Assembly (NCBI RefSeq): GCF_000455345.1
Contig: NZ_HG315690.1
Span: 2,952,339-3,016,338, forward strand
Direction: 5' to 3'
DNA from: Halopiger goleimassiliensis
GTDB taxonomy: Archaea; Halobacteriota; Halobacteria; Halobacteriales; Natrialbaceae
DNA length: 64,000 nt
A program made the position numbers and the translations under genes. The notes beneath the pieces are model-generated. The model did not search any database and was not told the DNA's origin. It saw only the letters and a list, made by a program, of their open reading frames with translations. Positions within the stretch are counted from its first letter, which is position 1. Each line of letters opens with the position of its first letter. Below are positions 6,922 to 57,878 of the stretch, piece by piece.

Positions 6922-7911
6922 GTGACACTCGCGTTCGCGTCGGTTCCCGACCTCCTGCGGCTCGTCGCCCTGCCCGTCTTCGCCTGGATCGCCGTCCGCG
7001 ATATCAAGACCCGACGGGTTTCGGGCGAGGTCTGGATCCCGCTCGCCCTGCTCGGGGCCGCCCTCCTGGTCTGGGAGGGCTGGCTCGCCAGCAACGCCGG
7101 CGGGACCGTCTGGACGCACGAGTTCCTGCTACCGGCGGCGATCAGCGTCGGGTTCGTCGTCCCCATCGCCTACCTGTTCTGGTGGGTCGGCGGCTTCGGC
7201 GGTGCCGACGCGAAGGCCCTGATGGTGCTCGCGGTGCTGTTCCCGACGTTTCCCCAGTACGCCGTCGGCGACTGGACGCTGCCCCTCTCGACGCCGCCGA
7301 TCGGCGCGTTCTCCTTTACGATCCTGACGAACGCCGTCATCGGCGGCATGCTCATTCCCGTCGCCCTCGCGCTCCGAAACGCCGCGGCGGGCCGGTTCGG
7401 CACCGTGATGGTCATCGGCTGGCCCATCTCGTGGGAGCAGGTTCCCGAAACCCACGGCACGCTGCTCGAGTCGCCCGACGGCGTCTCCCGGAGCGGCCTC
7501 GACCTCGACGCGCTCCGGATGTACCTCCGCTGGCGCGGCCTCTCGCTGGCCGACGTCCGCGAGGCTCCCGACCGCTTTCGGGATCCGGCCACGCTCCCCG
7601 AGGAGCCGAACCCGCCGACCGACGGCGCGGTGACGGCCGACGTCCGCGTCGACGGCGGCGCGACGGCCGAAACCGAGCGCACGGACGGAGACGCAGCGTA
7701 CGACGATCCCTGGGGTGCCGAGGCGTTCCTCGACGACATCGATCACGGCGCGTACGGAACGACGCCCGAAGAACTCCGGGAGGGCCTCGAGACGCTCGTA
7801 CAGAAAGAGACCGTCTGGATCTCCCCCGGCATGCCGTTTCTCGTCCCCGTCTTCCTGGGGATGGTGATCGCGTTCACCTACGGCGATCTGCTGCTGGGGC
7901 TGGTGCTGTAG
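6922..7911 (+). CDS. pibD: Archaeal prepilin/archaellin peptidase PibD
   Basis: 329 aa from a GTG; GCGTAAGG about 29 nt upstream fits a leaderless TATA box. It is an A24-family aspartyl protease with several membrane helices. Catalytic Asp candidates are in WIAVRDIKTRRV and GGFGGADAKALM (the GxGD-type site). A long acidic, soluble insertion (about residues 215-300) precedes the last helix, a feature of haloarchaeal PibD. It removes class III signal peptides from archaellins and type IV pilins, so the pilin-like protein at 52113 is an expected substrate. Confidence 0.88.
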   Translation: MTLAFASVPDLLRLVALPVFAWIAVRDIKTRRVSGEVWIPLALLGAALLVWEGWLASNAGGTVWTHEFLLPAAISVGFVVPIAYLFWWVGGFGGADAKALMVLAVLFPTFPQYAVGDWTLPLSTPPIGAFSFTILTNAVIGGMLIPVALALRNAAAGRFGTVMVIGWPISWEQVPETHGTLLESPDGVSRSGLDLDALRMYLRWRGLSLADVREAPDRFRDPATLPEEPNPPTDGAVTADVRVDGGATAETERTDGDAAYDDPWGAEAFLDDIDHGAYGTTPEELREGLETLVQKETVWISPGMPFLVPVFLGMVIAFTYGDLLLGLVL

Positions 7912-35298: not shown

Positions 35299-35306
35299 CT
35301 TTATTT
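35299..35306 (+). promoter_or_regulatory. TATA-like box before the structured region
   Basis: CTTTATTT lies about 25 nt before the first hairpin of the candidate RNA at 35324 and does not precede any plausible start codon at leaderless distance. Confidence 0.3.
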
Positions 35307-35323
35307 CGCCAACGTCAATGGTG

Positions 35324-35434
35324 GATTGCTCCCGCTACGCGGGGGCGAATCGTTGAGCCGGAGCGCGTGGTTGGCGCCTTGGGCTCCGGCTCAGCGCACT
35401 TTCGTGCGCGTCTGCACGGTACGCAATCTACCGT
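35324..35434 (+). ncRNA. Candidate structured RNA with four consecutive hairpins
   Basis: Four stems follow each other with almost no linker. Hairpin 1: GCTCCCGC/GCGGGGGC with loop TAC (35328-35346, one G-U). Hairpin 2: GAGCCGGAGC/GCTCCGGCTC, 10 perfect pairs (35355-35392). Hairpin 3: GCGCAC/GTGCGC with a TTTC loop (35394-35409). Hairpin 4: ACGGTA/TACCGT (35416-35434). No reading frame across it looks real. The strand is inferred from the TATA-like box at 35299. It could also be an element end or a regulatory leader. Confidence 0.4.
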
Positions 35435-35684
35435 AAAGAACGTTAGGATGCTGACTGGTTAGTACCGTGTCCCGCTCTGGGAAAGAGGAAACAAGGTCTA
35501 AATCAACCGCTCCGATTCCGCAGTGTCCCCAAGGGGACAAAAGCGAAAAAATACAGCACCCGCCCCTCCTTCTGCGGGGTTCCACTCGAACCTCCTGTTC
35601 CACGAGAAACAGTCGAAACGGTGGTCCAATAGGATTCCATTTCAGGGGAAATCGGTATAGAGTAGCTGTGCCATCATTTCACAT
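35435..35684. other. Intergenic stretch with one short hairpin
   Basis: No convincing gene. A 73-codon open frame (35467-35688) exists but has no recognisable composition or start signal. TGTCCCC/GGGGACA at 35524-35539 is a 7-bp hairpin with a 2-nt spacer. From about 35600 the base composition becomes AT-rich, marking the entry into the island. Confidence 0.4.
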
Positions 35685-35987
35685 ATGAGGGGCTGCTATT
35701 TCTGCGGAAATAGGTTTAAGCCTAGTACTGGAAATAAACCACAGTATAGAGTCGAAGAAATGGAGTCGACCAAAGAGATGGGTCGCGCTTGCCCATCTTG
35801 TGGACCTCGTCTTTTTCAGAAAGGTCTTTCTGGCCCTGGATGTATAGAACCAGGCTGTAATTCTTCAGAAGATATTAAAATTACCGAATATAAACCGGAA
35901 AAGAACCTCAGTGGAGAAATAACATGGAGAGCCGGAAAATGGTCTCCAATCTATTGTCAGAACCACGCTCCGTCCGCAAGCCCCTAG
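35685..35987 (+). CDS. Small Cys-rich, probably zinc-binding protein
   Basis: 100 aa. The cysteines come in metal-site pairs: Cys4/Cys7 (CYFC), Cys36/Cys39 (CPSC), Cys53/Cys58 (CIEPGC) and Cys91 with His94 (YCQNH), enough for two zinc sites. Codon use (ATA, AGA, TTT) is unlike the chromosomal genes, so it seems imported together with the following operon. The frame ends at a TAG at 35985. No known family is recognised; a nucleic-acid or protein-binding ribbon is plausible. Confidence 0.5.
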   Translation: MRGCYFCGNRFKPSTGNKPQYRVEEMESTKEMGRACPSCGPRLFQKGLSGPGCIEPGCNSSEDIKITEYKPEKNLSGEITWRAGKWSPIYCQNHAPSASP

Positions 35988-36189
35988 GGAACAGGGCAAT
36001 TGCGCTGCGCGTAGAGTACGCGCCGCGCTCGAGTTGGCAGACGAGATAGCCGAACAACACGTATTGACGGCAGCTAAAGCAATTCGACAATGCAACAGTC
36101 GAACTCCAAATAAAGAACTTGAAACAGGGGTTATAGCGGAAATATCGGATTATCCGTTCCAGGGGAAGGTTCAAATAGATCCCAAATAA
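35923..36189 (+). pseudogene. Coding-like remnant without a start codon
   Basis: A frame with no ATG or GTG runs from just after a TAA at 35920 to a TAA at 36187-36189. Its second half reads like helical protein: ARRVRAALELADEIAEQHVL, then TAAKAIRQCNSRTPNKELE. A TTG at 36034 would give only 52 aa. It overlaps the end of the Cys-rich gene in another frame. It may be the tail of a gene truncated when the island formed. The origin is not recognised; a AAA+/Orc1-type C-terminal helix was considered but not supported. Confidence 0.25.
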
Positions 36190-36200
36190 TAGATGCATCC

Positions 36201-37223
36201 ATGTCAGTTGATAAGGACAAGATCAGGAACATTTTGGAAAGCGATTCTATCAAAGCTTCTCATCTAAAAGAGTTAGTTGATAAAAGAGGGTTGGATGTTC
36301 ACCCGCGAACGATTGATAATATGATCACTGCTCTTCTTTCAGAAAAATGGACTGAGGATGAATTTGACGAGTTGAAGAAAATGCTCGTCATGATCCAGAA
36401 GGAGTCATCTCCACATGGATACTATGTCGGAACGATTGAAGGTTTACCCGACGCTACTCCTCAGGAGGATCACGAAGAACTCCAAGAAGCCCTCCGGATT
36501 AATGAGGCTAGTTTTGATGGAGATGAATTAATTGAGCCTGGTTTTAAAGTGAATAAATCATCGCCGAAACTGGTCACTGGTATCTATTGGACTCAGACCA
36601 CTACCTATGAATCAGACCCATTCGATAATTTAAGAACAAGAACTAAATTATATGACTTTGGATTCGAATTCCATCTTGATGAGGGCATTGTGCACATAAT
36701 CGGCGACAATTTTGGGAAATTAGGAGAAGTGATGTCGGCACTTGAAGAAGTTGGTGTCGATATCGAGGGTGTAGGCCATGACGGCGTTCATCCAGACGAT
36801 GCAAAAACATATGTGAAAGGATTCATAGATGATCTATCATCTGGGTTAGCAGATAAGCGCGCTCAGCAAAGCCTTACGAACTACGGTTCAGGAAGTCATA
36901 ATCCTCTAATTAGCGTCCATACCGTACATATTCGTCTATCTGGTGGCGCTCTTCAAAAAGCAGATCTTGAAGGAAACCAGGATATCTTCGATAATGACAC
37001 AGTGAAGACTCTAACAGAAGATAAGAATGGGAAAATTGCTCAAATGAAGGGTGATCTCATCTATAAAGACACAAACTTCGGATTTAATATCGGATATAAT
37101 GAAAGGCTCGGCAGGATTAGGATTAAAAAGAAAACGGGAAAGGATGGTGACGTGGATATTGTTGAGGAAGCTTTTGAATTCGTGTATTCTTATTACAAAG
37201 AGTATTATATTGATAAGCTATAA
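36201..37223 (+). CDS. Unrecognised soluble protein, first gene of AT-rich operon
   Basis: 340 aa, with AT-rich codon use sharply unlike its surroundings (22 G+C in the 60-base line at 36241). No signal peptide or membrane segment. The N-terminal 70 residues are helical and HTH-like (IRNILESDSIKASHLKELVD). A middle domain (about 110-235) contains VTGIYWTQTTTYESDPFDNL and the alpha/beta segment IVHIIGDNFGKLGEVMSALE. A C-terminal domain (about 240-340) has VHTVHIRLSGGALQK, FGFNIGYNERLGRIRIKKK and an aromatic end. No catalytic motif is seen. Its stop overlaps the next start (TAATG). Confidence 0.75.
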   Translation: MSVDKDKIRNILESDSIKASHLKELVDKRGLDVHPRTIDNMITALLSEKWTEDEFDELKKMLVMIQKESSPHGYYVGTIEGLPDATPQEDHEELQEALRINEASFDGDELIEPGFKVNKSSPKLVTGIYWTQTTTYESDPFDNLRTRTKLYDFGFEFHLDEGIVHIIGDNFGKLGEVMSALEEVGVDIEGVGHDGVHPDDAKTYVKGFIDDLSSGLADKRAQQSLTNYGSGSHNPLISVHTVHIRLSGGALQKADLEGNQDIFDNDTVKTLTEDKNGKIAQMKGDLIYKDTNFGFNIGYNERLGRIRIKKKTGKDGDVDIVEEAFEFVYSYYKEYYIDKL

Positions 37224-37975
37224 TGGGGAGAAAGTTCCAATTTGAGGTCCAATATACCCTTTCGCTTATTGTTGGTGTTTTGGGGTTAATCGGAACAGAG
37301 ACCCTTAACGGCTATATCCGCTTAGAAGTAGGATTAGCGTTCTTGGTTATTGGCGGAGTTCATTTAATTCTTTTATCTATTGTATATAGTTTTGAGAAAA
37401 CTGTGTCTATACCAATACCCTTGGTTGTTAGAATAGAGGAAATTAGTGTGTGGACATTGCGATTAGCAACACTATTCTTCGTGTACTTGCTATCTCATGG
37501 CTTGAGTAAGAGTCTCTTACCTACTGTAGATCCTGAAACAAACCGAGGTCTTATTGTGTTTGGGTTACCACTTCTACCTGTTGTGATCATCGTGATGGTG
37601 TACATCCTCAGCATCTTACCTTTCAAGAGATTTTCTGATGATGTCTCCATCACGATCGTTCCAGATGGTCTTACGATATTCGAGAATTACGAGGAAGGAA
37701 GACCAGGGCATATCGAAGTAGTAAATGATAGTGAACGGGCTCACGAGTTTGAAATAGTCATTGACCTTCCAGAGAATGTATATGCCCGCTACAAAGGAGA
37801 GGAATATGCTGACGAGATTATAGAGACTCTTTCATTTTCAGGAAAAGGTCTCCAAACTATGGATCTACAATTTCGTCATGACTCTTCAACACAAAAAATG
37901 GCGTTGACCAAAGTGCAGGTCGACTATAAGGAGTCCACCAGAGAGATCGAATGGGAAACTCTGTTAGCGCTTTGA
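37223..37975 (+). CDS. Four-helix membrane protein with C-terminal beta domain, second gene of AT-rich operon
   Basis: 250 aa, starting on the last base of the upstream stop (TAATG), so the two are translationally coupled. Four hydrophobic helices lie at about residues 9-27, 32-55, 73-96 and 108-132, followed by a soluble domain of about 110 residues rich in beta strands (VSITIVPDGLTIFE, GHIEVVNDSERAHEFEIVID). The topology resembles membrane effectors or anchors paired with cytoplasmic sensors, but no known family is recognised. Codon use matches its partner and not the chromosome. Confidence 0.75.
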   Translation: MGRKFQFEVQYTLSLIVGVLGLIGTETLNGYIRLEVGLAFLVIGGVHLILLSIVYSFEKTVSIPIPLVVRIEEISVWTLRLATLFFVYLLSHGLSKSLLPTVDPETNRGLIVFGLPLLPVVIIVMVYILSILPFKRFSDDVSITIVPDGLTIFENYEEGRPGHIEVVNDSERAHEFEIVIDLPENVYARYKGEEYADEIIETLSFSGKGLQTMDLQFRHDSSTQKMALTKVQVDYKESTREIEWETLLAL

Positions 37976-38034
37976 GGGACGCTATTGATCTGCTCCCCAG
38001 GGGTTGCACATCTCGAATACTAATTTCCCGAATA

Positions 38035-50933: not shown

Positions 50934-51341
50934 TCACCGCCCGGAGTCCTCCCGGTAGAGTTCCGGGTTGCGCCACCAGAACAGCCCCCAGCCGAACGCG
51001 AAGCCGCCAGCCATCGCGACGATTTCTTCCAGGATCCACGGTAACGTGCCGAGCAACGCGAGCAGTACCAGCGCGGACCCGGCCAGCGCGCCCAGCAGGA
51101 CGAACACGAGATCCCCGAGAATACGAATGGTCGAGTGCTCCCAGTAGTGCTGGCGGTCGTCGTCGTACCAGACGCCGACGTAGATCAACACCGGTGCCAT
51201 CGCCGTGATGACCGTGATCGCGTGATATTCCTCGGAGAAGCCGTACTGCGAGAGGATCGCGTTGACGACGCTCGCCAGAATCGTGGCGGCCAACAACCCG
51301 ACGAGCAACCACCCCGTCCGCGGGACCGTCTCCTTGTCCAT
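50934..51341 (-). CDS. Membrane protein, function unknown
   Basis: 135 aa from the ATG at 51341; ATTATTTTG about 28 nt upstream favours this start over an ATG 24 nt further on. Four hydrophobic segments (about 10-30, 40-58, 73-95, 98-120) and an aromatic end WGLFWWRNPELYRE. Between helices 2 and 3 lies VGVWYDDDRQHYWEHS. No family is recognised. Confidence 0.65.
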   Translation of the reverse strand: MDKETVPRTGWLLVGLLAATILASVVNAILSQYGFSEEYHAITVITAMAPVLIYVGVWYDDDRQHYWEHSTIRILGDLVFVLLGALAGSALVLLALLGTLPWILEEIVAMAGGFAFGWGLFWWRNPELYREDSGR

Positions 51342-51363
51342 ACCAGGGGTGGCCGAGGCCGTC

Positions 51364-51372
51364 AAAATAATC
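51364..51372 (-). promoter_or_regulatory. TATA box of the gene at 50934-51341
   Basis: ATTATTTTG on the minus strand, centred about 27 nt upstream of the start at 51341. Confidence 0.45.
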
Positions 51373-51407: not shown

Positions 51408-51701
51408 TTATTCGGCACAGCAGGCGTCTTTCTTCGCCGCCTCGTCGACGCCGTTGCCGTCCGCCGCGACCGGCTCCTTCAGCCGGTAGAGGCTCTGTCG
51501 AGCGTCCGCAAAGTAGATGTCCTCGTCGACGATACCGATCTCTTCGAGGCGCTCGAGGGCGTACCGGACCGTCCGGGCCGACAGCATCGATTCCTCGACG
51601 ATCTGTTTCTGGGTCAGCGGCCCGTCGTACTCGAGAACCTTGAAAACCAGTTTCGCGCTCGGTGGAAGGTCTTCGATCTCCTCCCCGTCAGTCTCTTCCA
51701 T
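51408..51701 (-). CDS. Small wHTH transcription regulator (MarR/ArsR-like)
   Basis: 97 aa. LPPSAKLVFKVLEYDGPLTQ, KQIVEESMLSARTVRYALER and LEEIGIVDEDIYF form a complete winged helix. The tail ends DACCAE with a Cys pair that could bind metal or respond to redox. The arrangement matches small haloarchaeal MarR-type proteins. Its promoter is a textbook leaderless box. It is divergent from the giant pilin-like gene, so it is a candidate regulator of it. Confidence 0.82.
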   Translation of the reverse strand: MEETDGEEIEDLPPSAKLVFKVLEYDGPLTQKQIVEESMLSARTVRYALERLEEIGIVDEDIYFADARQSLYRLKEPVAADGNGVDEAAKKDACCAE

Positions 51702-52081: not shown

Positions 52082-52090
52082 TTTTTATAT
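52082..52090 (+). promoter_or_regulatory. TATA box of the pilin-like gene
   Basis: TTTTTATAT lies 23-31 nt before the ATG at 52113. It supports that ATG over a TTG four codons upstream. Confidence 0.65.
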
Positions 52091-52112: not shown

Positions 52113-55100
52113 ATGGCAGGGGAGAATCGTCCTGGGTTGCCGGACTCGTCGGATCGGGGACTGAGTCCGGTCGTCGCGGTGGCGTTGTTGTTTACGATGG
52201 TGCTCATCGGGGCGGGACTCGTCTTCGTCACGGGGTCCGAGATGATCGCCGCCTTCGAATCCAACATCAACAACGAGAAGGTCGACCTCTGTGTCGACGA
52301 ATCCGACCACCGCCTCGGAACCGTCGTTGGTACAGGTTCCGAACGGTCGCTCGAGTTCGACGATCCTAACTGTCAGCCACAGGTGGCCGGCGACGGATCG
52401 ATCTCGGTCACGGCATACAACAGTTCGATCGAAGACCCACAGTGGAGCGATCCGGATCGAACCGTCACCGAAGAACTCGGCGCGCTCGAGTTCGACGCCA
52501 ACGACCGACGGATCGCCCACCAGGGCGGCGGAATCTTCGAACTCACTGACTCCGGTGCACGCACCGTGGAGTCACCTGAGATCGGCTTCGGCAGGAACGA
52601 CACGCTCAACCTGGAGTTCATGCAGGTCAGTTCGGGCAACGGCCCGGGAGCGCGATCGATCGCCCAACAGGACCCCGATGGCGCATCGCAGGCGGCAGCG
52701 AACCTCAGTTCGGTCGTCGAGAACGCTACTAACGACGTCGCCATCAAGATCGAAAGCCAGTACGCCGACGGCTGGGAACGCCACCTCGAGAGCGAAATCG
52801 AGCAGGTCGACACGTTCGCCGTCGACGTAGACCGACCGTCGAACGACGAGGTCGTGATGACGATCGAGGAGATCGGCGAAGCCCCGATCGACCCACACTT
52901 CCTGATCGACGAGGATCACGGACTATCGCCACATAGCAACGGACACACAATCGCCGGCAACATCCTCGAACATGGCACTGACTTCTACATTAACACGACG
53001 CTGACCAACTACGGAGACGAGGCGGACCACGTCACTGCCACCATCACGATCTGGAACGAATCAGGGGCGGTCGTCGAGACACGTCAACTCACGTCGAACG
53101 ACGAAATCGCTCCCGGCGAATCCATTCGAACAGACGGTGACTACGACTGGGCCTGGGGCGGATCAAACGCGAATCACCGCTTCGTGACAAAGAGCGGAAA
53201 TACCGGAAACGGAAACGGCGCTGGGAACGGGAACCAACCGATCGGGGTCGAACCGGGAGAGACCTACGAGTACCAGGTCGAAACCGATCCCGGCGACGAC
53301 TCGTTGACCGATCGAGGATCCTTCCTCGTCGATGAGAACCCGCCCGAGTTCAGTATCGAGTGGACGAACGTCGTCGGCGAGCCGATTACCCCGCGAGAGA
53401 CGGTTACCGTCGAAGCCGAAATCGAAAACCAGGGCGAAGAAGACACCCAGTACGTCTGGCTCGGCGGATTCGACGGCAACGTGGTCGACATCGGCGAACT
53501 ACACCTCGACAGGCACGACAGCAAGACGGTGACGTTCGAATGGGGGACTGCACCCATCCCCTCCGACTCCGACCCCGAGTTGACCGTCGGGACGCAAGCC
53601 AACACGGAGACGGTCGACGTCGACGTCGAGCCATTGCTCGAGATCACCGACGTCGAGGTGCTCGAGGACTCCGTCGAGGAAGGCGATACGGTGTCGGTCG
53701 AGGCCAACCTCGAAGCACTCGGCGGTCAGACGAGACAGAGCGTCGTGCTCGAGGGGTTCGACGGCGGGGTCGTCGATCGAGAAACCGTCACCGTGTCGGG
53801 TGACAGAACCATCACACTCGACTACCCCGGCGTCGGGGAACGAACCGATCGCGTCACGGTGAGAACCGACGACGACGAGGCGGAAGCAGTCGTCGTCGTC
53901 GAACGGGAGGGCCCGGTCTGCCGAGAAGTCAGTTACGACGGAAGCGGAACGTCATCGGATCCGTACCAGGTGGGCAACGTCGATCAACTCCAGTGTATCA
54001 ACGACCAGGGTCTCGACGCCCACTACGAACTCGTCGACGACATCGACGCCCACGGGACGAAGTTCTGGAACAGCGGAACGACGGCGATACACGAAGAGGC
54101 AGAGACCGACGACGGGACGGATTTCACCTATGGCGACCGGATCAATCTCAGTAAGACGTCCGTCGTCGATGGATCGGTTCACGTCGACGGTGGCGGTTAC
54201 TATGGTACTGGTCCCGACTTCGAACTCGTCGATCCGGAGAACGGAATTATCGAGATTCGGGACTCGCCCGGATACTTCGACGATTGGTCGGAGCTAGAGA
54301 TCACCTACGAGCGAAGCAGTCCGCAGGGATTCGAGCCGATCGGTCAAGACGGAAATAACTATCCGAACAAGAACGATATTTCCAACTGGGACGGTGACGC
54401 GTTCAGCGGAGAGTTCGACGGGAACGGGAACGAGATCAGGGGGCTGTATATCGATCGGCCGAACGAACGGTTCGTCGGGCTGTTCGGAGCAACCAACTAC
54501 CCGTCAAATGACGCACCCGTCGGCTGGGGGTCCACGATACAGAACGTCCGACTCACTGATGTCTACGTACACGGCCAGCAACACGTCGGTGCCCTCGCCG
54601 GACAAGCTGGCGGGACCGTAGAAAACGCGAGAAGTGAAGGGTACGTCGAGGGAGAGGAGCAACTCGTAGGGGGACTGATCGGCGACGGAGCACACGCCAA
54701 CATCGACAACCGCCTCGTCGCGGAAGGCACCGTCGTCGGCGGAGAGATTGCAGTTACCGGTCGCAACAAACTGAACCACGAAGGAATCGGCGGACTGGTC
54801 GGCCGGGCGACCTGGGAAACCCAGGTGTCGACGGCCTACACGCAAACCGACGTCAGCGGCTCCAAATACGTCGGTTCCATCGTCGGCACCTCCTCCTACG
54901 TCGACTCGGAGTTCGAGCAGATGTACACCACCGGCACCGCCAGCGGCAGCGACTCCGACGCCGGTGCCATCGTCGGCCACGTCCTCTCCGGCGGCGACCG
55001 CTTCGCCGACAGCGTCTACTGGGACGAAACGATCGAGTCCGATCCCTACGGAGAGGTCGGCAACTGGTACAGGGATCGTCTCGACCCCAGCGACATCCAG

Positions 55101-55658
55101 GGTGACTGGATCGGCCGCACGACAGCCGAAATGCAGGGCCTCGACGTCACCGATCCCGGTCGAATGGACAACCTCGAGTACGAAGACGAGGGCGGCCCCT
55201 GGGTCGCCATCCCCGAGGACTACCCGCGGTTCGCCTGGGAACTCGAGGCCGAGGGCGTCTTCGAGGTCGATATCGACGACGTCGAGAACGTGACGGCCGG
55301 CGAAGCCGCCACGGTCGAGGTCACGGTGACGAGCCGATACCAGGACCGCAACGAGGAAGACGTCACGCAGACGATCACGCTCACGGACCCCGACGGCCAG
55401 ATCGTCGATACGAAGCAGGTGACCCTTGAAAGTAGCCTGGACGACGACGAGTCGACGACGATCGACCTCGTCTGGCAGACCGGCTTCGACGACGACGGCG
55501 TCGGCGAGGTGACCGTCCGGAGCGAGGACCGGGAGGATTCGGCGACGATCGAGGTCGATTCCGTCGACGACAGGACCGGCAACGCCGGCAGTTCGCCGGA
55601 AGACATCATCGCCGACTCGGCGGTCGACATCGACGTCGACGCGGTCCAGGTCGGCTGA
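52113..55658 (+). CDS. Giant type IV pilin-like surface protein with GLUG repeats
   Basis: 1181 aa. The N-terminus DSSDRGLSPVVAVALLFTMV is a haloarchaeal class III signal: PibD would cut after the Gly, leaving a pilin-type helix (about residues 16-40). A long beta-rich ectodomain follows with CARDB-like units (about 400-590), a second block from about 600, and GLUG repeats at about 785-965 (FVGLFGAT, VGALAGQAGG, VGGLIGDG, IGGLVGRA, VGSIVGTS, AGAIVGHV). A last beta domain ends near 1150. Ordinary pilins are 130-200 aa, so this is probably an adhesin tip or surface fibre. Confidence 0.8.
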   Translation: MAGENRPGLPDSSDRGLSPVVAVALLFTMVLIGAGLVFVTGSEMIAAFESNINNEKVDLCVDESDHRLGTVVGTGSERSLEFDDPNCQPQVAGDGSISVTAYNSSIEDPQWSDPDRTVTEELGALEFDANDRRIAHQGGGIFELTDSGARTVESPEIGFGRNDTLNLEFMQVSSGNGPGARSIAQQDPDGASQAAANLSSVVENATNDVAIKIESQYADGWERHLESEIEQVDTFAVDVDRPSNDEVVMTIEEIGEAPIDPHFLIDEDHGLSPHSNGHTIAGNILEHGTDFYINTTLTNYGDEADHVTATITIWNESGAVVETRQLTSNDEIAPGESIRTDGDYDWAWGGSNANHRFVTKSGNTGNGNGAGNGNQPIGVEPGETYEYQVETDPGDDSLTDRGSFLVDENPPEFSIEWTNVVGEPITPRETVTVEAEIENQGEEDTQYVWLGGFDGNVVDIGELHLDRHDSKTVTFEWGTAPIPSDSDPELTVGTQANTETVDVDVEPLLEITDVEVLEDSVEEGDTVSVEANLEALGGQTRQSVVLEGFDGGVVDRETVTVSGDRTITLDYPGVGERTDRVTVRTDDDEAEAVVVVEREGPVCREVSYDGSGTSSDPYQVGNVDQLQCINDQGLDAHYELVDDIDAHGTKFWNSGTTAIHEEAETDDGTDFTYGDRINLSKTSVVDGSVHVDGGGYYGTGPDFELVDPENGIIEIRDSPGYFDDWSELEITYERSSPQGFEPIGQDGNNYPNKNDISNWDGDAFSGEFDGNGNEIRGLYIDRPNERFVGLFGATNYPSNDAPVGWGSTIQNVRLTDVYVHGQQHVGALAGQAGGTVENARSEGYVEGEEQLVGGLIGDGAHANIDNRLVAEGTVVGGEIAVTGRNKLNHEGIGGLVGRATWETQVSTAYTQTDVSGSKYVGSIVGTSSYVDSEFEQMYTTGTASGSDSDAGAIVGHVLSGGDRFADSVYWDETIESDPYGEVGNWYRDRLDPSDIQGDWIGRTTAEMQGLDVTDPGRMDNLEYEDEGGPWVAIPEDYPRFAWELEAEGVFEVDIDDVENVTAGEAATVEVTVTSRYQDRNEEDVTQTITLTDPDGQIVDTKQVTLESSLDDDESTTIDLVWQTGFDDDGVGEVTVRSEDREDSATIEVDSVDDRTGNAGSSPEDIIADSAVDIDVDAVQVG

Positions 55659-55713: not shown

Positions 55714-56061
55714 ATGTCGACCGAATCGATCAGTGACCGACGCGAGCACATCCGCTCGATCAGCGTGACGGCGCTGGCAGCGCTGCTCGGCGTCGGTGCA
55801 GCACTCGCGTCCATGTCGATGACGGGCGAGATCACGTCGCTCGAGACGGCGAACGAGGTCGCGAGTGATACCACGGCGCTCATGCTCGTCGCCGGGGCGA
55901 TTCTCGTGCAGTTCATCCTCTACGACTTCACGGACATCTACAGCGACGACGAATTCAGCGTGAAAAACTACCTGTACATCGTGTTCATGACGTTCGCGTT
56001 CTGGTTCGTGACGTGGGGAATCCTCCTGACCTCCGAAGCCGCTGACTACCTCCCAGCCTAA
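55714..56061 (+). CDS. EMC6-like membrane protein
   Basis: 115 aa. A polar N-terminus (MSTESISDRREHIRSIS) and three helices (about 17-37, 50-72 and 85-106), with GVGAALASMSMTGEI and LYDFTDIYSDDEFSVKNYL. Size and pattern fit the archaeal EMC6-like family, a possible ancestor of the EMC insertase subunit. CACCTTTTCAC lies 27 nt upstream. RLI/ABCE1 starts 2 nt after its stop, so they form an operon that links membrane insertion with ribosome recycling. Confidence 0.75.
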   Translation: MSTESISDRREHIRSISVTALAALLGVGAALASMSMTGEITSLETANEVASDTTALMLVAGAILVQFILYDFTDIYSDDEFSVKNYLYIVFMTFAFWFVTWGILLTSEAADYLPA

Positions 56062-56063
56062 CC

Positions 56064-57878
56064 ATGGCAGACGACAGTATCGCCGTCGTAGACCTCGATC
56101 GGTGCCAGCCCGACCGGTGTAGCTACGAGTGCAAGAACTACTGCCCGCCCAATCGCACCGGCAAGGAGTGTATCACCCTCCGGGGCGAGGAAACCGAGGA
56201 GGGCCAGCCCGAGCAGATTCAGATCTCCGAGGAGATCTGTCTGGGCGAAAGCTGTGGGATCTGCGTCGAGAAGTGTCCCTTCGACGCCATCGAGATCATC
56301 AACCTGCCGAAGGAACTGCAGGACGATCCCGCCCACCGCTACGGGGAGAACGCCTTCTCGCTGTACGGCCTCCCCGCGCCACAGGAGGGGCAGGTGACGG
56401 GCATCCTCGGCCCCAACGGGATCGGGAAGACGACGGCCGTCCGCATCCTCGCGGGCGAACTCGAGCCGAACCTCGGCCGCCACGAGGAAGAAATCGACTG
56501 GGACGACGTCCTCGAGGCCTACCGTGGAACCGAATTGCAGGACTACATCGCGGACGTCCGGGACGGCGAGGTGACCGTCGCCCGCAAACCCCAGTACGTC
56601 GACCAGATCCCCGATACGTTCGACGGCAACACCCGCGAGTTGCTCGAGCGGACGGACGAGCGGGGCGCGCTCGAGTCACTGGTCGAACGGCTCTCGATCG
56701 AACCCGTCATGGAGCAGTCGATCGACGACCTCTCCGGCGGCGAACTCCAGCGGGTCGCGCTGGCGGCTACCCTCGCGCGGGATACGGACTTTTACTTCCT
56801 CGACGAGATCACGCCCTACCTCGACATCGGCCAGCGCGTGACGGCGGCGCGGTTGATCCGCGAACTCGCCGAGGAGGAGGACAAGTCGATGCTCGTCGTC
56901 GAGCACGACCTGGCGATCCTCGACCTGCTGGCGGATACGCTACACGTCGCCTACGGTGAGCCGGGTGCCTACGGCGTTGTCACCTCGCCCAAGTCGGTTC
57001 GCAACGGGATCAACGAGTACCTCGCGGGCTACCTCGACAACGAGAACATGCGGATCCGGCCGGACCCGATCGAGTTCGAAGAACACGCGCCACGGACCGA
57101 CGTCCACGGCGACGTACTCGTGGAGTATCCCGACCTCACCAAGAGCTACGGCGACGGCGAGTTCTCGCTCGAGGTCGAGAGCGGCCAGATCCACGAGAAC
57201 GAAGTCCTGGGGATCGTCGGCCCCAACGGGATCGGGAAGTCCACCTTCGCGAAACTGCTGACCGGGAATCTGGACCCCGACGAGGGCGACGCGGACCTGG
57301 ATCTGGACATCTCGTACAAACCCCAGTACGTCACCATCGACCAGCACATGCGGGTCGACGCGTTCCTCTCCTCGATCACGGACCAGTTTGGCTCCTCCTA
57401 CTGGAACACCGAGATCGCGAAACCGCTCCAGCTCGAGCAAATCATGGAGCAGAACCTCTCGGACCTCTCGGGTGGGGAACGACAGCGCGTCGCCATCGCT
57501 GCCTGTCTCTCCGATTCGGCGGATCTCTACCTGCTCGACGAGCCCTCCGCACACCTCGACGTCGAACAGCGGGTGCAGGCCACGAGCGCCATCCGGCGCT
57601 ACGCCGAACAGCAGGACGCGACGGTCATGGTCATCGACCACGACATCTACATGATCGACCTGCTCGCGGATCGGCTGATGGTCTTCGACGGCGAACCCGC
57701 CGTCCACGGGCACGCCGGCCAGCCCCAGTCGATGCGCGAGGGCATGAACGAGTTCCTCGCGAACCTCGAGGTCACGTTCCGCCGCGACGAGCGCACCTCG
57801 CGCCCACGGATCAACAAGCCCGACTCGCAACTCGACAAACAGCAGAAAGCGGACGGCGAGTACTACTACGCGCCCTGA
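56064..57878 (+). CDS. RLI/ABCE1 ribosome-recycling ATPase
   Basis: 604 aa. The Fe-S domain has eight ligand cysteines in two blocks (Cys14, 19, 23, 27 and Cys59, 64, 67, 71; Cys36 is extra). Two ABC domains follow: Walker A GPNGIGKTTAVRI and GPNGIGKSTFAKL, signature LSGGELQRV and LSGGERQRV, and Walker B FYFLDEITPYLD and LYLLDEPSAHLD. It splits ribosomes after termination with aRF1/aPelota and is essential in archaea. The last 15 residues are Lys/Gln-rich. Confidence 0.96.
   Translation: MADDSIAVVDLDRCQPDRCSYECKNYCPPNRTGKECITLRGEETEEGQPEQIQISEEICLGESCGICVEKCPFDAIEIINLPKELQDDPAHRYGENAFSLYGLPAPQEGQVTGILGPNGIGKTTAVRILAGELEPNLGRHEEEIDWDDVLEAYRGTELQDYIADVRDGEVTVARKPQYVDQIPDTFDGNTRELLERTDERGALESLVERLSIEPVMEQSIDDLSGGELQRVALAATLARDTDFYFLDEITPYLDIGQRVTAARLIRELAEEEDKSMLVVEHDLAILDLLADTLHVAYGEPGAYGVVTSPKSVRNGINEYLAGYLDNENMRIRPDPIEFEEHAPRTDVHGDVLVEYPDLTKSYGDGEFSLEVESGQIHENEVLGIVGPNGIGKSTFAKLLTGNLDPDEGDADLDLDISYKPQYVTIDQHMRVDAFLSSITDQFGSSYWNTEIAKPLQLEQIMEQNLSDLSGGERQRVAIAACLSDSADLYLLDEPSAHLDVEQRVQATSAIRRYAEQQDATVMVIDHDIYMIDLLADRLMVFDGEPAVHGHAGQPQSMREGMNEFLANLEVTFRRDERTSRPRINKPDSQLDKQQKADGEYYYAP

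Follow-up and report, generated by a model that had tools for sequence, protein, structure and literature searches.

Pilin-type heads with exchangeable adhesin-like bodies and a conserved C-terminal tail in a family of giant haloarchaeal proteins

Our comparison of sequences suggests that in archaea pilin subunits serve as carriers onto which interchangeable adhesins are built, since in a family of giant proteins a standard pilin end carries an exchangeable body and a tail is common to all giant relatives. The member from which we start, P0001, has 1181 aa and is encoded at 52113-55658 of the window, by which we mean the whole 64,000-nt stretch analysed, from contig NZ_HG315690.1 of Halopiger goleimassiliensis (all features given here by window position lie on the forward strand unless stated otherwise). 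We think it fairly likely that P0001 is a modular, minor pilin-like surface adhesin, processed by the prepilin peptidase PibD and entering a pilus as a probable tip subunit. A sequence-only reading had proposed a pilin N-terminus with an adhesin-like body as a PibD substrate, and this part is well supported, as a prediction, by conservation, by pilin homology, by a DUF7289 protein in the pil operon and by a single PibD, while its tip adhesin in pili is something we infer. What that reading missed is the haloarchaeal family, the swapping of bodies and the conserved C-terminal tail.

The open reading frame is genuine, with homologs present family-wide. Because a TATA-like box (TTTATA, 52084-52089) is centred about 26 bp 5' of the ATG at 52113, at what would be a haloarchaeal promoter spacing, we infer a leaderless start at 52113; an alternative in-frame TTG lies 12 bases upstream of this ATG. 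The gene apparently has its own promoter and stands alone, outside any pil operon, adjoining two downstream neighbours conserved in synteny, the EMC6-arch gene (55714-56061, Pfam PF19094) and the ABCE1/RLI gene (56064-57878, by domain match). The protein is acidic (D+E 21% vs K+R 5%), as is expected of haloarchaeal proteins. Elsewhere in the window lies a low-GC island (35300-38000, with 41% in 36001-38000 vs about 66% around it), probably recently acquired, whose frames 36201-37223 and 37223-37975 matched no Pfam family.

The N-terminus reads MAGENRPGLPDSSDRG and, after the predicted class III cut, LSPVVAVALLFTMVLIGAGLVFVTG. The n-region (aa 1-16, 52113-52160) ends in DSSDRG, so that the predicted PibD-type site, DRG/LSPVVAVALLF (the stroke marks the cut), consists of a charged and a small residue followed by a hydrophobic helix. 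This pilin alpha-1 helix (aa 17-74, 52161-52334), hydrophobic and then amphipathic, is the sole strongly hydrophobic segment of the protein: the maximal Kyte-Doolittle window is 2.74 at residue 20 and does not exceed 0.8 beyond residue 60, and the scan of the whole protein revealed no C-terminal or other membrane anchor. The pilin-type N-terminus claimed earlier for this 1181-aa protein is thus confirmed, in that the class III site DRG/LSPVV directly precedes the single strongly hydrophobic stretch. Moreover, the site is conserved. Among 50 machine-parsed giants, 48 have R and two have H at position -2, all 50 have G, A or S at -1, and P at +3 and G at +6 occur in 47 each, the n-region being mostly variable elsewhere; 40 further rows, judged by eye, are mostly class III-like. 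A strict FlaFind-like rule passes 32 of 46 family members; of 445 other gene calls it passes 14, roughly half of them pilin-type proteins themselves, and some relatives fall outside the strict rules through S at -1 or G at +1. General pilin models give P0001 sub-threshold matches (Pfam Pilin_N; the NCBIfam archaellin/pilin N-terminal model TIGR02537, 14.8 vs a cut-off of 20), and one relative passes Pilin_N (25.5 vs 25.2).

The helix leads into a DUF7289 head (aa 15-252, 52155-52868; Pfam PF23960, 50.3 bits vs a cut-off of 27), for which AF2, run on 47 sequences, gives one long helix (19-74) and a beta-rich head at pLDDT 86.7. When the head profile is compared with the PDB, solved archaeal pilins come out on top (9myg, E 1.5e-4; 8gi2, Natrinema PilA2, 4e-3; 8fj5, 5e-3), the matches being confined mainly to the conserved RAVSPVIG-type helix. 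Structure searches with the head gave no Foldseek match below 1e-3, a best VIA Z of 3.9 and a Z of 2.8 for the minor pilin FimU, and this missing structural match is uninformative on whether the fold is novel. As no convincing structural neighbour emerged, we base membership among the pilins on sequence, motif, helix and gene context, and not on the head fold.

The gene context comes from the small forms of DUF7289. In the genome of H. goleimassiliensis a DUF7289 protein of 258 aa closes a pil operon with the order pilB-pilC-DUF7287-DUF7288-DUF7261-DUF7266-DUF7289. The same operon is found in L148, L149, L151, L156, L157 and L158; in three of these a larger DUF7289 protein directly adjoins the operon, the one checked being of DUF7289-DUF7305 form. 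Partial versions of the operon occur in genomes further away within the phylum. We considered the stop-to-stop frames of L148, L149 and L151 as giants and rejected them: according to Pfam, DUF7289 begins at residue 467 of the L148 frame, the protein having about 630 aa and the DUF7289-DUF7305 form, which the similar L149 and L151 frames probably share. A tandem array of DUF7289 proteins at L152:6134-13973, three in number (frames of 876, 891 and 662 aa), lies beside small pilin-like genes of pil operon type; at least the first of the three has a C-terminal DUF7305, and its inserted body gives a weak Bactofilin match. As for the processing and assembly enzymes, the only Peptidase_A24 found in the genome, PibD, is encoded in this same window (6922-7911), and the genome encodes several T2SSF/PilC-type proteins. 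Since the site is conserved, the head profile matches archaeal pilins and the small form of DUF7289 sits in the pil operon, P0001 is, by its sequence, a pilin-type protein whose signal peptide is no chance occurrence.

Behind the head lies a body that is beta-rich by AF2, as the earlier reading had said. It begins with three Ig/CARDB-like domains (aa 261-600, 52893-53912; VIA-align Z up to 10.6 for 412-503, CARDB sub-threshold), followed by a GLUG N-cap running from GSGTSSDPYQVGNVDQLQCIND to YELVDDIDA (aa 601-656, 53913-54080), a cap seen again in GLUG proteins elsewhere in the genome. Before the first turn there follows an insert of 81 residues (aa 657-737, 54081-54323), delimited by alignment, most of which is missing from the consensus of aligned orthologs. 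Then come a GLUG-type beta-helix of six turns with its C-cap (aa 738-1048, 54324-55256; sequence, alignment, AF2 and regex), a fourth Ig-like domain recognised by its AF2 strands (aa 1049-1150, 55257-55562) and a disordered linker (aa 1151-1169, 55563-55619; pLDDT about 30). The claim of at least six GLUG-like repeats holds by eye, with turns at residues 788, 825, 852, 892, 920 and 950, and a strict regex finds five, vs 0.12 in shuffled sequence (maximum 2 among 2000 shuffles). The Pfam Glug model gives a single sub-threshold match on P0001 (E 0.71) and is passed by a relative (L057:9759-13760, 22.7 vs 20.5 bits).

Structure prediction, which had been proposed as a check, gave the long N-terminal helix with the beta head at pLDDT 86.7 and a body of Ig-like and beta-helix character. 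The full-length model (16 sequences; mean pLDDT 68.9, pTM 0.34) contains the Ig-like domains, a beta-helix of moderate confidence, the linker at 1152-1168 and a last strand at 1171-1180; with a pTM of 0.34 it does not establish how the domains are arranged or what the tail docks on. In the fold search with the full-length model the Ig-like domains dominate the matches, and the docking place of the tail is not visible from it.

GLUG is a general beta-helix repeat. The suggested kinship with IgA-protease-like adhesins turns out to be weak, the best PDB sequence match, to IgA1 protease, having E 0.17, and the genome encodes several other GLUG proteins that lack a pilin head. Two of these (L085:8506-10800 and L084:9471-10706) end in PGF-CTERM-like anchors, so that the GLUG module would be displayed through two different anchoring routes. 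Our literature search on GLUG together with pilins or archaea found nothing specific.

How widespread is this architecture? In this family group, 104 of 125 genomes contain a match to some part of P0001, and neighbourhood analysis of 35 loci reveals two fixed sites for DUF7289 giants: site A, just upstream of EMC6-arch and ABCE1, where the 1181-aa giant lies, and site B, between adk and the EMC3/TMCO1 gene. The genome studied has its GLUG giant at site A and a 531-aa DUF7289-DUF7305 protein at site B. Both loci thus border a homolog of the EMC insertase core, EMC6-arch (55714-56061) in one case and EMC3/TMCO1 (DUF106; L081:10538-11494) in the other, which may be due to chance, through the synteny of housekeeping genes, or may point to membrane insertion. 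Upstream at many site A loci, on the opposite strand, lie genes for a small winged-helix protein (here 51408-51701), a possible regulator, and for a membrane protein (50934-51365). Over the phylum as a whole, DUF7289-like heads occur in 109 of 247 genomes. Among the matches listed, frames of at least 775 aa are confined to the same order, and outside it DUF7289 proteins are predominantly of about 260-290 and 470-520 aa, often as direct neighbours, all these lengths being stop-to-stop frames and hence overestimates. The giants at sites A and B mostly have about 780-1400 aa.

Homologous heads in this family carry two types of body, GLUG and non-GLUG. P0001 and the site B protein of L052 have heads of 29% identity and GLUG bodies of 64%, whereas L055 and L070, both at site A, have heads of 52% identity and bodies without detectable similarity. 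On the starred branches of the head tree, body type must have changed at least twice. Judged by these comparisons, bodies are exchanged among homologous heads, as would be expected of a pilin head carrying exchangeable modules. At L115 (G064:C1:313000-324000) the giant gene is broken, with a 669-aa frame and the usual tail further downstream, so that either the assembly is wrong there or the gene has decayed.

While the bodies change, the type of C-terminus does not. The last strand of P0001, AVDIDVDAVQVG (55620-55655), belongs to a tail of about 12 aa, of the type VDVDxDxIVIG or G-V-D-V-D-T-D-H-I-V-I-G, that ends every complete giant examined at both loci and is common to GLUG and non-GLUG giants. 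Under a matrix built from non-GLUG tails, each of 535 control C-termini is outscored by the tail of P0001, and all or nearly all of them by most of the remaining GLUG-type tails. A strict 36-base DNA pattern of the tail has 15 matches in 125 genomes vs zero for the reversed control in the same 125 genomes, and coordinates place all 15 at or beside the 3' ends of DUF7289 giant genes, the match in G064 lying downstream of the frame broken in the assembly. At 20 additional loci every complete giant has the same general ending, with some divergence, for example FEFENDYIVIEN in L125; the DUF7305 forms have different C-terminal endings.

What might such a tail do? In the AF2 model pLDDT rises from about 30 in the linker to a mean of about 80 in the tail strand (1171-1180), so AF2 docks the strand confidently somewhere. 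Since a head strand that spans 165-167 in the isolated model lengthens to 165-174 in the full-length model, the modelling suggests that tail and head may pair in cis. Most likely the C-terminal strand folds back on the head, leaving the exchangeable body enclosed by two constant ends. More generally, we tentatively entertain, at somewhat less than even chances, a way of building adhesins specific to haloarchaea, in which a constant pilin head and a constant tail strand clamp the body between them, the tail docking back on the head or, as a donor strand, on the neighbouring subunit. If so, bodies could be swapped with the assembly surface untouched.

We can now sketch how P0001 would work. The protein would leave the cell through Sec, its N-terminus staying on the cytoplasmic side, and PibD would cut at DRG/LSP, after which the 56-residue alpha-1 helix would anchor it in the membrane. 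A type IV pilus machine of PilB-PilC type, encoded elsewhere, would incorporate it as a minor subunit, probably at the tip. The DUF7289 head would sit beside the alpha-1 helix, the Ig-like stalk would push the GLUG beta-helix, presumably a binding module, past the S-layer, and the conserved C-terminal strand would dock back onto the head.

From its sequence, P0001 most likely displays an adhesin either through a pilus or from the membrane, and the chief rival to the pilus route is accordingly a PibD-processed adhesin that never enters a filament, the helix being an anchor only and the protein standing alone in the S-layer space. The helix is indeed the sole anchor, the body is long enough to work from the membrane, and the gene stands by itself at fixed housekeeping loci with no pilus gene adjoining. 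However, cleavage site and helix are precisely conserved in nearly all relatives, and DUF7289 homologs sit in pil operons. Moreover, pilin genes distant from the assembly machinery are normal in haloarchaea (PMC4858521), and since the PilA pilins of Haloferax are likewise encoded apart from it (PMC4858521), a stand-alone gene is no argument against assembly. We therefore regard the purely membrane-anchored adhesin as unlikely, though a serious competitor.

Two further readings seem to us much less probable. In one, the giant would anchor or cap SipW/Taf-like donor-strand fimbriae, for which genes flank the locus in many relatives: of 20 loci linked to emc6/ABCE1, about 12 encode a SipW-type signal peptidase, a CARDB protein and TafE/TafA/TafC-like proteins near the giant (for example L055:5172-5750, L056:12019-12564, L063:13759-15000 and L077:1622-2791), the NCBIfam Taf-model matches all lying below cut-off. 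Yet these genes are absent at the P0001 locus and several others that still keep the giant, as well as at the second, adk-EMC3 locus, and P0001 has a class III site instead of a SipW-type signal peptide. We rejected a dependence on this system, as the genome of H. goleimassiliensis has no match to the SipW protein of the relatives at E 0.001, and we hold the fimbrial role to be quite improbable. A search of the literature on Taf fimbriae found nothing relevant. The other reading, which we consider the most improbable of all, is an uncleaved signal-anchor protein that is no pilin, its RG-LSP motif being incidental. It draws on the scores of P0001 by itself under the cut-offs of pilin models and on the meagre structural matches of the head, and it has against it the family-wide site, the profile matches to solved archaeal pilins and the DUF7289 proteins of pil operons.

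Modular pilins are well described in bacteria (PMC8179133; PMC10191384), among them PilB and PilC of Streptococcus sanguinis, ComZ and CofB (PMC8179133). There too a class III pilin module is joined to a grafted binding module not specific to pili, and ComZ is described with a beta-solenoid module (PMC8179133); P0001 is built in a similar way, its DUF7289 head being followed by Ig/CARDB domains and by a GLUG beta-helix as the presumed binding module. The bacterial survey used the motif IPR012902 and reached an extreme of 860 aa, whereas the giants here are archaeal, have a DUF7289 head and mostly measure about 780-1400 aa, and we noticed no description of a conserved C-terminal tail in that survey (PMC8179133). 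Size as such, contrary to what the sequence-only reading implied, is no anomaly, for predicted archaeal class III proteins range from below 150 to well over 1000 aa (PMC4371748). Among archaeal systems, the operon of the 258-aa DUF7289 protein resembles the PilB4 locus of euryarchaeal type IV pili (PMC4858521), whose minor pilins are small and, unlike the giants, without a grafted body. The major pilins PilA1-6 of Haloferax and Natrinema PilA2 share the class III site and SPVIG-type helix of the giants but are short, and the larger giant head has no clear match to theirs. GLUG surface proteins, such as the N-terminal region of pneumococcal IgA1 protease and those of the same genome, have a similar cap and turns and lack the pilin head.

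A literature search found no paper on DUF7289, and what is new, to the extent that our tools show, is an archaeal modular family with bodies swapped at fixed loci and a family-wide C-terminal tail. To our knowledge most predicted archaeal class III proteins lack an assigned role, so that the giants, with their clear modules and conserved site, are a good place to test function. Modular pilins, surveyed so far in bacteria, would extend to archaea in an extreme form, the Pfam family DUF7289, widespread in the phylum, gains a lead related to function, and the tail motif predicts a docking mechanism that can be tested.
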